A DNA stretch of 64,000 bases, taken from the NCBI GenBank assembly GCA_029582155.1, contig CM055905.1, forward strand, positions 64,695,952 to 64,759,951. Direction: 5' to 3'. How positions within the stretch are numbered: position 1 is the first letter of the stretch; each line of letters opens with the position of its first letter. Positions 35,301 through 44,300 of the stretch are shown here, piece by piece. A program made the position numbers and the translations under genes. Under the pieces are notes generated by a model. The model saw only the letters and a program-made list of their open reading frames with translations. It made no database searches and was not told the origin of the DNA. Origin of the DNA: Panopea generosa. Taxonomy: Eukaryota > Mollusca > Bivalvia > Adapedonta > Hiatellidae.

Positions 35301-38300
35301 AATCTGAAATGTAACAGAAACTATGTTCTAAACACTCTTCCATATTTCTTTTTTGTTATCCCTTTACTTCATATAGATGCCTTTAGACACCTCTAATATA
35401 GATACCTTTGGACACCTTTAATATAGAAGGCTTTTGAATTATTGGGTGAATTATGTTTATATTAACTGACAGGGTGGAAAACAGTGCAGGAAGTGTTCAG
35501 ATTGCTCGTTACGAGCAATCTGAACTCTTCCTGCACTTTTTTTAAAGGCCTTCTGTGATTGGTGCAGGAAGACGCGTATCTATGGAGTAAAGAGTTAAAC
35601 TTCTTCATTTTACCTCTATTGTGAAACAAGTTATTACAATTTCGACAAAACATGCTCAAGGTCTTCCTGGTTAGAACCAGTATTAATTAAACATATTTGG
35701 ACAGTGTCTTCCCGAAGGACCCTACATATAACCATGGCGGAGGATCAAACCCCCACCCCCAATTCAGAGTTGGATACTCTACAAATGGGGGGGTCACAAG
35801 CTCCTACCCTGGGTTCAATGTTCTCACTTCAGTCTTCAGAAAATGTTTTAGACCAGTGGGCCATAGAACACTACCACTATTTTGAATGAATTGTTTTTCT
35901 ATAATGTCAGTGATATAAACTTGAAGATTTAAAAGATTGTATTTTGTAATATAGCACTGTATAGCATTTACCTCTATTGTACAATTAATACTATCACAAT
36001 ATAATCTTTTGTGGGTAAAGAATAAACTGTGCCCGTCATTATTACTCATTGGAATAAGTTATTTTCCAAATCGTTACTTCCGTATTTGGTATATTGGTAT
36101 AATCTCTTTTCTGTATGCACTTATATCGGAGAGATTAGTTTGAAATGGAGTCATTATTTCATTTTATGTTTTTAGTTTGTATGTGTTTTCAAACAAACAT
36201 ACAGTTGGCATCTGGAGATTGTGACACCAGGTGTAGATGGGAACCATGGGACTCTTGGTCTGAATGTTCTAGGACATGTGGAGGTGGATCACAGTTCACG
36301 ACGAGGGGACTGTGCTGTAATGTGGCATGGTCGTACGACACATGTTTACAAGAATGCAGCCTTGAGAATGATAACTACCAAAACCAGTCTTGTAACACAT
36401 TCTGTTACAACGGTGGCAGTTTTCATGAATTTTGCACATGTCCCGATGGATTTACTGGCATCTGCTGTGAACAAGGTACGGCACTTAACTTATACTTCTA
36501 ACCTTGTGCTCTTAGTCCTGTTTTATACACGTTAAAGTTCTGAAACCACTCTTTTTTTTTTAATAGTATTTATATTTTGTTAGTTATATTTTTAAATTGT
36601 TGTCTTTTATATTTTATAAGTTATATATTTTAATTTTTGTTCTTATATTTTGTAAGTTATATTTTAAATTGTTGTCTTTTATATTTTATAAGTTATATAT
36701 TTTAATTTTTGTTCTTTTATTTTGTAAGTTATATTTTTAAATTGTTGTCTTTTATATTTTATAAGTTACATATTTTAATTTTTGTTCTTATATTGTGTAA
36801 GTTATATTTTCAAATTGTTGTCTTTTATATTTTATAAGTTATATATTTTAATTTTTGTTCTTTTATTTTGTAAGTTATATTTTTAAATTGTTGTCTTTTA
36901 TATTTTATAAGTTACATATTTTAATTTTTGTTCTTATATTGTGTAAGTTATATTTTCAAATTGTTGTCTTTTATATTTTATAAGTTAGATATTTTAATTT
37001 TTGTTCTTATATTGTGTAAGTTATATTTTCAAATTGTTGTCTTTTATATTTTATAAGTTATATATTTTAATTTTTGATCTTATATTTTGTAAGTTATATT
37101 TTTTAACTGTTGTTTTTATGTTTTGTAAGTTATATCAACTTACCAGTATTTTTTAAAATTATAAATATACTTTTTTTTTTCTTCGATTACTTCCAGCTAT
37201 CAATTTAACACGATTTTCAACACATAACAGGACTGGTTACATGATAGCAATCCTGTTTTATTGGTGGAATAAATCTAGGTACTAGCTCACTGGAGTAAAC
37301 TTTTCAAGTCATTGCTTCCTTATATTGTATATTGCCATAATTTAACTGCTCGATTCTGCATACATGTGCTATTGGAAGGAGAACTTTAAAATTGAGTCAT
37401 TATTTCATCGTATGTTTCTAGTTTGTACTAGTATATGTATTCAAACAAATGTTCAGGTGGCTGGAGAATGTCACTTATGTAAATGGGGACTGTGGGAGCC
37501 GTGGTATGAATGTTCTAGGACATGTGGAGGAGGGACCCAGTCTAGGACAAGAGAATTATGTTGTAAATGGAGTTGGTCAATTAGTACATGTTTAGATAAC
37601 TGCAAACTTGAGGATGATTACCCCTGGTCCATCCAACATCAATCTTGTAACACACTATGTTACAATAGTGGCAGTTTCAATGAATGTGTTTATGAAACAT
37701 CGAAGTGTATATGTCCAGATGGATTTACTGTCATCTGCTGTGAACAAGGTAACCTTGGTAATGTCAGTTTTATAAAAATGAAAACTTCTGAAACCTTCCT
37801 TTTTTTATTTCTTTTTTAACTTACTTTTTTTAAACTAAAAATATTCGTCAATTTAAAAAAAAAGAATTATATTATAAATAATATTATTTTTATAACTTTT
37901 ATTTCTATAGTCTTTATCATAATAATAATTATAACTATTAATATTGCCTATAAAAAGTATAAAAAAATACAAAAAACGTTACCAGTCTTGATACAAAAAT
38001 ACAAAAAAAACACTACCAGTCTGGATACAAAAATACAAAAAAAACACTACCAGTCTGGAAACAAAAACACTGGATACAAAAATACAAAAAACACTACCAG
38101 TCTTGATACAAAAATACAAAAAACACTACCAGTCTGGATACAAAAAAACAACAACAAAAAAACACTACCAGTCTGGATACAAAACTACAAAAAACACAAT
38201 GCCTACTGGGGTCCAACACCCATCTTCAACATATGGCTGGTTATAATTATATGGTTTAATTGGTAAAATAAATTATAATAGATAATTTTCATTATAATTG

Positions 38301-41300: not shown

Positions 41301-44300
41301 TACAAAGTGTATATGTCCAAATGGATTTACTGGATTTTGCTGTGAACAAGGTATGGTACTTGGCATATACCTGTCACCTGTTAAAAGTCCTGAAACTAAA
41401 TTTTTTAATCTATTACAGTCAAACCTGTATAAGTGACCACCTCTATTAAGCAGCCGTAACTTGTCTTAAGCAGCCACATTCGCTATTTCCTATTTCTATG
41501 TTTTCATAATAAATTTACCAGTATTAAGCAACAACCTGTCTAAAAAGGTCACTTTTGTTCTTTCCCTTGACTGGCTGCTTAAGACAGGTTTGACTGTATA
41601 TTTCTTGTTTTAAATGTCTATCTTTTGTAAGATGGGTTTTCTCAGAATCTGAATTTCAGGACTAAGAACCACTGCCCTTCCTCAAGTAACTGCCAAATTT
41701 TCTCCTATAAAGTTTTTTAATCAAATAGGCTCAAACCCAAAACCTTAGTAGTAGTAGGAAAGTGGTCAATAGACATCAGCTCCTTGGACCACTTGGTAAT
41801 GAAGAACCCCAAATTCCAAATTAGATACCACTTAAAGGTTTAATTTCATTTCAGATATTGACGAGTGCGCGAGTGGCCCCTGTCAGAATGGAGGTACTTG
41901 CAGAGACAAGATCAACAGGTACGAGTGTGAATGCCTACCAGGTTTCTATGGTGACGACTGTGAAACTGGTATATGTCACCCTCTTCCTGCTGATATCATA
42001 TTTGTGTTAGATTCCTCCATAAGTCAAACACAAGAGAACTTTCAGATGCAGCTTGGTTTTATATTACATTTTCTAGGCCACGTCAAAGTTGGGCCAGATG
42101 ATTTTCAAGTTGCAGTTATTACGTTTTCCTTTGAGGCCAAAATAGAATTTAATCTCACAGACCACAGTACAAATGACTCTCTCAGGCGTGCTGTAGAGAA
42201 TATCGAGTTTCGTCCAGGAGCGACGTTCACCAACGAAGGTCTGGACATGGTAAAGGTCGTTCTAGCGGTCGATGGCAGCGGACCAAGACCCAATGGGAAG
42301 ACAGCCAAACAATATGTGTTTGTTCTTACTGACGGCATGTCTACAGACAGGATGAAAACTAAAGTAGCAGCAGCAGAGGTCAAAGGTCATGTACATAGGC
42401 TTGTTGCCATTGGTGAGTTGAAAGTCTTGGTTTTATAGTTGATGAAACTCTCCAATGATATAATGTGCATGTTTTAATTCATATTGTTGACTATCCTAAA
42501 TTTTTTAATTGAAGTGTAGGAGGTGTCAGCCCAACAAGACATTGTTGTTTTTCTTCCCTTTTTGGGGCCAAAGTTAGGCCCTATTCCCCTCACCAAAATG
42601 AATGTTCTTTTTCCCACAATGCAAATTTTTTTCGCTCAATTTATTTTTATTTTTTTTTTTTTTTTAATGTAGTTAAATGCCTGTTTAACAACAAAAAATA
42701 ATGGTTTTAAACATTCATACTCGGAACTGCATGGTTTTAACTTTTCCCATTTTAATATTTACAACGTTATTTATCTATATAAAAGAACTTTAAATACCAA
42801 ATCATGTGTCTGTCCTATAAGTGAGGCATTCACATTGAATAAAAGGACAGTATATTATACTTAATGTATTGTTTTTGCAAGTATTTTATAAAATCTATTT
42901 AGTATTTCTTTCAGACTACTTTTTCACCAAAATTTACTTAAAAACATAATTTTGACTGGTTACATAAATATTCTTTAGTTAATATAAATGAAATAAAGTG
43001 CAGTTTTTCTGGAACCAGTCTACAATCATGATCACTTTGATGTTTTTCTTTAATTTAATATTTTAAGTATTAAATTTTTATATTAGTTAAAATGGAGCCT
43101 GATATTAAATAAGTACATTTTTTTAATGTATTTTTTTTTTTTTTAATGGGGTTCAACTCCTTTTTCAACACATTTCAGGTTATATATGGCATAGCCAGTT
43201 TTACTGGTGGAGGAAGACCGCAGACTGAGTAGAACCACCATCCTTCTGCAAGTAACTGGAGCCAACGGGACTCAAACCTACGACCTTAGCTATGAGAGGT
43301 AAGTTATCTTCAGACAACGGCTTAGACCACTAGGCCAAGGAGGACCCCTTTTTTTCAATGTAAAATCCTTCATTTAACAATTATTTAATACAAACTGAAT
43401 CTTACATGATAATGGAACTGCTCCATCTTAACCATAATTTCAGGTATAGGAGCAGAGGTGTCTCACCAGGAGCTACTAGACATGGCGTCAGTTGGTGACA
43501 GCCAGACGTCACAGTACGTATTCTCCGTACAAAATTTCAACGCTCTGTACACCATTATACAGCAACTTGTGCATATTACATGTGACGAGTGCAGATATAC
43601 CAGCCTCTCAGACATTGTGTTTCTATTGGACGAAACTAGTCATGTGACAATGGAGGATTTCCAGACGGCCATTGATGATATTACGTATCTTGTCAGTAAT
43701 TCCGAGACATATGGGACAGCAGAGGGACCACAAATTGCTTTGCTGACATTTGACGGCAACATAAACACGATCCTGAATCTAAACCATGGTACAAGTAAAC
43801 TGAACCTCTTGCCATTCCTACAGAATCTAGTCAAGCATGACGGGTCATGTGACCAGGACACGGACTGCGATAAGGTAACGATTACTGAAGCTGTCCGGCA
43901 AACCATTGAAGAAGCTTTCTTGGCTAAAAACGGCGGAAGATCAGCAGCAAGAAAGTTTGTCATAGTTTTCTCAAATGGTCAGTTAGACAACACAGATGCC
44001 ATAAACAAGAAGGTGGATGAGTTTAACCAAGCTGGAGATGTAAGGATGTTTGTGATTGGTCTAGGAGATAATGTCAACATGGAAGGCCTGTTGTCATTGG
44101 TTGAAGATCCCAACTATGTGTTTCTCACCAAGCATGGAGTTGAGCCTACTAACTTGGCAGTTATACAGGCCGAGTTCTTGTACAACATTTGCGAACTCAG
44201 CGATCCGTAAAATTTTTAATCATTCACAGAATGTGTCCAGTTCATTAAATATCACTTGAGAGTAACTTCTTATAACAAATTGTAGTACTTTAAAAACAAT

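Follow-up and report, generated by a model that had tools for sequence, protein, structure and literature searches.

Within the 64,000 nucleotides of Panopea generosa DNA analysed here (the window), an exon encoding a signal peptide, a TSP1 module and an EGF-like half module occurs three times ahead of a body containing two VWA domains. This raises the question of whether all three serve the one body. A sequence-only reading had proposed that each copy is an alternative first exon feeding the same gene, and on the sequence the triplicated, open exon is confirmed (3 copies). As that reading claimed, all three copies end in an identical phase-1 donor, GAACAAG/GTA; searching both strands of the window for GAACAAGGTA returned exactly three sites, one per copy and all in phase 1. 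The single acceptor at 41855 (cag/AT ATT GAC, reading DIDEC) restores the frame after every copy. The common body is therefore frame-compatible with every donor, and in silico joining to the constant exons gives full open reading frames of 551 (copy 1), 569 (copy 2, from 37364) and 564 amino acids (copy 3). Both VWA domains score far above the Pfam cut-off of 23.8 bits, VWA1 at 96.8 and VWA2 at 81 bits. From its domains, the encoded protein probably belongs to the extracellular matrix or is adhesive, and the gene appears to lie within a crumbs intron, on the opposite strand. Our preferred reading, to which we give a probability of about 0.6, is that the locus is a small variable-first-exon gene.

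Table 1. Features of the locus, in window coordinates. Percentiles of AG sites are given for the generic and the smaller acceptor matrix.
Feature	Position	Strand	Remarks
TATA-like stretch upstream of copy 1 (-55 and -47)	36090..36103	+	suggestive only
Candidate variable first exon, copy 1: signal peptide, TSP1, EGF-like half	36145..36475	+	donor AAG/GTACGG, phase 1
Internal AG, copy 1, phase 1 (next base 36176)	36174..36175	+	96.9 generic, 92.8 smaller
TATA-like stretch upstream of copy 2 (-70 and -63)	37321..37333	+	suggestive only
Candidate variable first exon, copy 2	37364..37748	+	homologous start position 37391; donor AAG/GTAACC
Internal AG, copy 2, phase 1 (next base 37422)	37420..37421	+	95.1 generic, 35.1 smaller; potential 3' splice site
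TATA-like stretch upstream of copy 3 (-53 and -51)	40928..40935	+	suggestive only
Candidate variable first exon, copy 3: signal peptide, TSP1, EGF-like half	40981..41350	+	donor AAG/GTATGG
Internal AG, copy 3, phase 1 (next base 41012)	41010..41011	+	96.9 generic, 92.8 smaller; potential 3' splice site
Constant exon 2: EGF (DIDEC) and most of VWA1	41855..42412	+	acceptor ttcatttcag/AT; EGF 1.3e-8, VWA 2.2e-27 (Pfam)
Constant exon 3: end of VWA1, VWA2, stop codon	43444..44210	+	VWA 1.6e-22 (Pfam); frame closes at TAA

Pairwise identity of the copies is 76.5%, 76.4% and 74.9% over aligned coding positions, and a homology search within the window gave copy-versus-copy protein E-values of 4e-35 to 2e-45. 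The best relatives of copy 3 in its own genome are the other two window copies (1e-40 and 1e-29), with the next at 1e-13 among the 150 of 179 candidates that were scored. These E-values and this ranking show that the homology of the copies is not due to chance. The tree of copies and paralogues contains no strongly supported fork, so path lengths alone were used; the path among the three copies is 0.5-0.9, compared with at least 3.7 to any paralogue. In the nucleotide alignment every gap within the exon is a multiple of 3, and 14 mature cysteines are invariant across the copies, with one extra in copy 2. The TSP1 module of copy 3 matches thrombospondin-1 in phmmer (2.4e-9), and the Pfam TSP1 matches of all three copies fall below the cut-off. 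W-x-x-W and CSxTCGG/CSxSCGG, which we take to be motifs of this module, are visible by eye in each copy, and the cysteine spacing, also read by eye, suggests the EGF-like half. An AlphaFold2 model from the three-copy alignment had a mean pLDDT of 38.3 and was discarded. A weak match to the copies at 16601-16672 on the minus strand (E 0.02 to 0.84), downstream of the crumbs tail, was taken as chance.

Two other origins for the array were rejected. Divergence at about one in four aligned coding positions argues against a haplotype or assembly duplication, and tandem duplication of the whole gene with subsequent loss of bodies would conflict with the lack of any body trace between the copies, where a homology search within the window found no second VWA/EGF body. 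Elsewhere in the genome we identified five paralogous exons (on C15, C16 and C13, with two on C6), each with a start, signal peptide, TSP1 and phase-1 donor read by eye, and each single within its fetched stretch.

In the variable-first-exon reading, a secreted TSP1-EGF-VWA-VWA gene would produce mRNAs of three exons each, its first exon having undergone two tandem duplications that took in roughly 100-200 bp of the DNA upstream. Transcription would start just upstream of each copy, and the donor of the transcribed copy would join 41855 across an intron of 5.4, 4.1 or 0.5 kb (copies 1, 2 and 3), skipping any intervening copies, for which, being first exons, no acceptor would be needed. Every mRNA would then encode the same EGF-VWA-VWA body behind a different TSP1 module. 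The working alternatives would be copies 1 and 3, with copy 2 either weakened or starting at its upstream ATG. The exchange of modules might conceivably switch the ligand of the protein.

The DNA upstream of the copies is mutually homologous. Its similarity score exceeded neutral simulation (P < 0.05) in only 5 of 36 settings, four of them for copies 1 and 3 and one for copies 1 and 2; all five used the full synonymous distance, and none was found at 0.7 of that distance. Constraint on the upstream DNA was on this count rejected as proof of separate promoters.

Pairwise dN/dS among the copies is 0.21-0.41, and one omega fitted to all of them, 0.32, lies significantly below 1 (p = 1e-6). The branch leading to copy 1 has an omega of 0.16 (p = 8e-5 against 1; p = 0.0009 for the mature part alone) and that leading to copy 3 an omega of 0.31 (p = 0.02; mature part alone p = 0.018). 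The dN/dS comparison that the sequence-only reading had called for thus reveals purifying selection on copies 1 and 3, and both therefore look like working first exons; copy 2, in contrast, is indistinguishable from neutral (branch omega 0.69, p = 0.53 against 1). In copies 1 and 3 the first 41 coding nucleotides are identical (codon-shuffle P 0.013); a start codon with a favourable context lies within them, which is what translation starting in both would predict.

Copy 2 is less straightforward. Its proposed start at 37364 is indeed an in-frame ATG, but it lies upstream of the homologous start position, where the ATG is now ATT. The context of this upstream ATG is weak; the same in-frame ATG is present in copy 3 (40954), and in copy 1 it is cut off by a stop. 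Copies 1 and 3 possess both their own start and a donor; in copy 2 the donor is present and the homologous ATG is missing. Copy 2 also retains the frame and all 14 shared mature cysteines. Given the lost ATG, the weak upstream ATG and a branch omega not different from 1, the status of copy 2 as a first exon is doubtful. The alternative-first-exon interpretation fits the geometry of the locus and is supported by the selection on copies 1 and 3; the missing start and the neutral-looking branch of copy 2 count against it.

The state of copy 2 could also point to a locus with one live first exon, either copy 3, which is nearest the body, or copy 1, accompanied by slowly decaying relics that were used once or never. 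Members of this family do die, as shown by a decayed whole-gene paralogue on the same chromosome (C12:16.457-16.463 Mb), in which each of the two VWA parts contains stops. We nevertheless regard this explanation as unlikely, as copies 1 and 3 each show an omega below 1 on their own branch and the donors of all three copies are intact after a dS of 0.6-0.9. In neutral simulations, which modelled substitutions only, the open frame survived in 3-12% of cases and the mature cysteines were all kept in about 1% or less.

Are the copies preceded by acceptors, which first exons would not need? The claim that no acceptor stands before their starts is fair: the AGs common to the copies 9-13 nt upstream of the start position rank at the 5th-54th percentile of 6586 AGs. 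One AG that ranks high in the generic matrix, at 40903 (98.6th percentile), is found in copy 3 only. This AG is what a distant upstream promoter with a non-coding 5' exon, spliced to one copy at a time as mutually exclusive second exons, might use. Among the five paralogues, two (the one on C16 and that on C6 at 3.28 Mb) have AGs at most 10 nt before the ATG that reach the 88th-94th percentile of the generic matrix, which makes a non-coding 5' exon conceivable in this family. At this locus, however, copies 1 and 2 have no comparable AG at the homologous place, and the smaller matrix places 40903 only at 30.7. We consider such a shared leader very improbable.

A further AG is found within the signal-peptide codons of all three copies, 31 nt after the ATG position, in a phase that fits serial joining. 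Transcription could in that case begin at copy 1, with copies 2 and 3 spliced in as internal exons through this AG to give one to three TSP1 modules; being the most upstream copy, copy 1 would not need its own. In the generic matrix these sites lie at the 95th-97th percentile, above the true acceptor at 41855 (87.3) in the same crude model, and AGs within the signal-peptide codons of the five paralogues reach only the 87th. Serial splicing would also offer a reason why the lost ATG is tolerated in copy 2. In the smaller matrix, in contrast, 41855 stands at 99.5 and the AG of copy 2 at 35.1, and T-rich signal-peptide codons easily produce tracts of this kind. Copy 3 moreover keeps its ATG, its start context and all 31 of 31 nt up to the AG identical to copy 1, none of which an intronic tract would need, and the inserted segment would bring signal-peptide remnants and extra cysteines. 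We find serial splicing improbable, somewhat more so than decay to relics. Slightly less probable again is a dual-mode locus, in which the copies act as alternative first exons when the promoter of a given copy is active but, when transcription starts upstream, also as phase-1/phase-1 internal cassettes through the signal-peptide acceptor; if true, one, two or three different TSP1 modules could be placed on the common EGF-VWA-VWA body. The generic matrix used for these rankings is rough (five of six control acceptors were scored, at 73.3 to 99.8); for the two C6 paralogues and C13 its scan took starts that were one base off, with the signal-peptide codons still inside the scanned stretch. The smaller matrix was built from 6 sites, of which one is clearly false. 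Several sites are ranked differently by the two (smaller versus generic, 99.5 versus 87.3 for 41855 and 26.7 versus 88.7 for 43444), so neither carries much weight.

How does the locus compare with known systems? Among bivalve proteins, the mussel byssus protein PTMP1 (Proximal thread matrix protein 1) is secreted and has two VWA domains, as here; it matches VWA1 (1.4e-16) and gives VWA2 its top match (8.2e-11), and collagen VI alpha 3, with its many VWA repeats, outscores it for VWA1 and for the whole protein. The portion of the PTMP1 source consulted mentions neither TSP1 nor a variable exon (PMC4754843). A Pinctada fucata byssal protein with TSP1 and vWFA likewise combines the two modules in one bivalve protein, a likeness drawn from its description (PMC4597212). 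Searching the literature by titles and the starts of abstracts returned no bivalve or invertebrate variable-first-exon case, which is no proof of absence.

The layout itself has vertebrate counterparts. In the protocadherin alpha and gamma clusters variable first exons are likewise joined to constant exons (PMC1885805), with more than 12 variable and three constant exons per cluster and cell-surface cadherins as products. Vertebrate UGT1 has the same type of layout but some twelve variable exons and four constant ones, an unrelated protein and a reported conserved upstream motif, where we see only upstream homology. The closest in size is GCNT2 (IGnT), which in man, mouse and rat has three tandem, similar variable exons with their own promoters and two constant exons (PMC1885805), the same numbers as here. 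GCNT2 differs in encoding an enzyme rather than a matrix protein, and its separate promoters and transcripts are reported, whereas the present layout is read from the sequence. An array of just three variable exons and two constant ones should make the choice of promoter and the swapping of modules simple to test. Should the transcripts exist, the locus would illustrate how such an array can grow by duplication of the first exon only, with the ancestral start codon lost in one copy, and it would provide a compact example, from an invertebrate, of the layout described for vertebrate protocadherins, UGT1 and GCNT2, acting here on a secreted matrix-type protein so that one gene could yield proteins with different front modules.

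On the plus strand, positions 36145-44210 of the window hold one gene, made up of three homologous candidate first exons (copies 1, 2 and 3) and two constant exons downstream. Each copy codes for a signal peptide and a TSP1 module, together with an EGF-like half module recognised by cysteine spacing only, and closes with a phase-1 donor, GAACAAG/GTA; the window contains exactly three such sites. Any single copy joined to exons 2 and 3 gives an unbroken frame, of 551 aa for copy 1, 569 aa for copy 2 (counted from the ATG at 37364) and 564 aa for copy 3. The observation of three open first-exon copies sharing one acceptor, made in the sequence-only reading, is borne out with corrections. 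Both EGF and VWA in the constant exons exceed the Pfam cut-off; the TSP1 matches of the copies lie under it, and copy 3 matches thrombospondin-1 at 2.4e-9. DxSxS is the metal-site motif of VWA domains. By eye, VWA1 retains DSSIS and VWA2 has DETSH at that motif, and VWA2 may be without metal binding.

Features of the VWA gene and its surroundings (window coordinates)
Feature	Positions	Strand	Remarks
Copy 1	36145-36475	+	
Copy 2	37364/37391-37748	+	
Copy 3	40981-41350	+	
Exon 2	41855-42412	+	EGF and most of VWA1
Exon 3	43444-44210	+	remaining VWA1, VWA2, stop codon
Tandem-repeat array	36570-37135		between copies 1 and 2; 73-bp unit, 7.8 copies
Tandem-repeat array	40052-40680		between copies 2 and 3; 27-bp unit, 23.1 copies; alternatively 109-bp unit, 5.7 copies
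C-terminal tail	17194-17436	-	Protein crumbs (PDB) match, 1.8e-9
EGF stretch	35092-35355	-	above Pfam cut-off
EGF stretch	45771-45974	-	slightly below Pfam cut-off
Laminin G exon	60801-61673	-	

The comparison of dN/dS between the copies, a check proposed in the sequence-only reading, revealed constraint on copies 1 and 3 but not clearly on copy 2. Pairwise dN/dS (Nei-Gojobori) was 0.33 for copies 1/2, 0.21 for 1/3 and 0.41 for 2/3, at dS of 0.66, 0.92 and 0.62. In a codon model fitted to the three-branch tree, one omega for all branches (0.32) rejected 1 (p = 1e-6). The branch omegas of copy 1 (0.16, p = 8e-5 vs 1) and copy 3 (0.31, p = 0.02) lie below 1 and so indicate that these copies are maintained as protein. 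The copy 2 branch, at 0.69, did not depart significantly from 1 (p = 0.53), and giving copy 2 a separate omega moved lnL merely from -1000.34 to -998.54, no clear difference from copies 1 and 3. Under simulated neutral evolution (by substitutions only, with the fitted branch lengths of 0.38-0.65 per codon) the frame was still open in 3-12% of cases and all mature cysteines were kept in about 1% or less. Because an open frame and the cysteines rarely survive neutral simulation, copy 2 was probably under constraint during part of its history. Counted from the alignment, its mature part has 15 cysteines, vs 14 in copies 1 and 3. The copies are most alike at the EGF end and in the signal peptide, and least alike in the middle of TSP1.

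The window lies at 64.70-64.76 Mb of C12, one of the chromosomes (C5, C6 and so on) of a 1.47 Gb genome. Among the 150 of 179 first-exon candidates scored genome-wide, which makes all counts lower bounds, copies 1-3 are mutual closest relatives, and next come exons on C15, C16, C6 (two) and C13. By eye, each of these five paralogous exons is a single open stretch that holds a start, a signal peptide and TSP1 and has a phase-1 donor, that on C15 being TGTGAACAAG as in the window; the start and signal peptide suggest that they are first exons. No second copy of any of the five was found in the 30 kb around it (E up to 0.01; for C15 the search covered only ~5 kb of the upstream side). On C16 a further TSP1 exon lies ~32 kb downstream. 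For VWA1, with 150 of 1680 candidates scored, the best relatives form two groups of three VWA genes, at C11:46.53-46.57 Mb and C18:9.35-9.46 Mb, with 53-57% identity. The stretches inspected ahead of the first gene of each group, 4.2 and 4.6 kb long, contain EGF exons; no TSP1 exon of the window kind was near either group among the matches listed (150 of 179 scored). A decayed whole-gene paralogue at C12:16457000-16463123 has a TSP1-like exon and VWA1 and VWA2 containing stops. Tandem first exons occur only at the window locus among the members examined. Separately, almost equal EGF exon matches recur by the dozen at C5:9.81-9.92 Mb and C5:7.49-7.51 Mb, regularly spaced by ~0.85 or 1.7 kb; they would represent tandem genes or one very large array of EGF exons.

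Acceptors were ranked with a rough generic matrix, as percentiles among 6586 AGs, and with a smaller second matrix for comparison; the true acceptor at 41855 reached 87.3 and 99.5, respectively. On the generic matrix the AGs common to all copies, 9-13 nt before the starts, fell at the 5th-54th percentile, and an AG at 40903, present before copy 3 only, at 98.6. An internal AG within the signal-peptide codons, 31 nt into the coding part, ranked at 96.9, 95.1 and 96.9 in copies 1, 2 and 3 (92.8, 35.1 and 92.8 in the smaller matrix) and has the same phase as the donors in each copy, vs 87 at most for signal-peptide-codon AGs of the five paralogues; in those on C16 and C6 (3.28 Mb), AGs immediately before the ATG lie at the 88th-94th percentile. 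Given these ranks and the phase, serial or cassette use of the copies through the internal AG is a real rival; the sequence-only reading, which listed serial joining as a refutation, saw no sign of it in the sequence. However, copy 3 retains its start codon, and over the whole tract it does not differ from copy 1, which is what a first exon would require. Graded by the start-context rule, ATGGAGTCA offers copies 1 and 3 a well-placed start of translation. The equivalent position of copy 2 (37391) reads ATTGAGTCA; the start previously assigned at 37364 is indeed an in-frame ATG, but it lies further upstream and in poor context. Use of the copies as alternative first exons is plausible. The support is strongest for copies 1 and 3, and copy 2 is uncertain.

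Homology in all pairs spans the 100 bp preceding the start positions, with 0/300, 2/300 and 0/300 shuffles reaching the observed score. For copies 1/3 the homology extends to 200 bp (0/300); none was detected out to 200 bp for the other two pairs (87/300 and 43/300). Set against neutral evolution, this conservation stood out in just 5 of 36 settings, and four of the five concerned copies 1/3. TATA-like stretches occur at -55/-47 (copy 1), -70/-63 (copy 2) and -53/-51 (copy 3). As signs of promoters they are only suggestive, since TATAWW has a probability of 0.14 in a random 36-nt stretch of the window and the three copies are related by descent. Each copy may have a promoter of its own, as predicted in the sequence-only reading.

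The minus strand around the VWA gene also carries EGF exons. Together with the laminin G exon and C-terminal tail they would form one crumbs gene, a homologue that appears to cover most of the window (17194-61673). Because EGF stretches flank it on both sides, the VWA gene appears to sit within a crumbs intron on the opposite strand. The repeat arrays between the copies may have promoted the first-exon duplications.

By its domains the predicted product resembles bivalve byssal matrix proteins: the collagen-binding PTMP1 carries two VWA domains (PMC4754843), and TSP1 and vWFA occur together in a byssal protein of Pinctada fucata (PMC4597212). A byssal role could be suggested by this analogy. 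Collagen VI alpha 3, with its many VWA repeats, outscores PTMP1 whether VWA1 or the whole protein is compared. The window gene has the constant exons of a variable-first-exon layout and would belong to a kind of gene already known from vertebrates (PMC1885805). Vertebrate GCNT2 is equal in number, with three variable first and two constant exons, and vertebrate UGT1 is alike in logic, every variable exon there encoding a signal peptide and recognition domain (PMC1885805).
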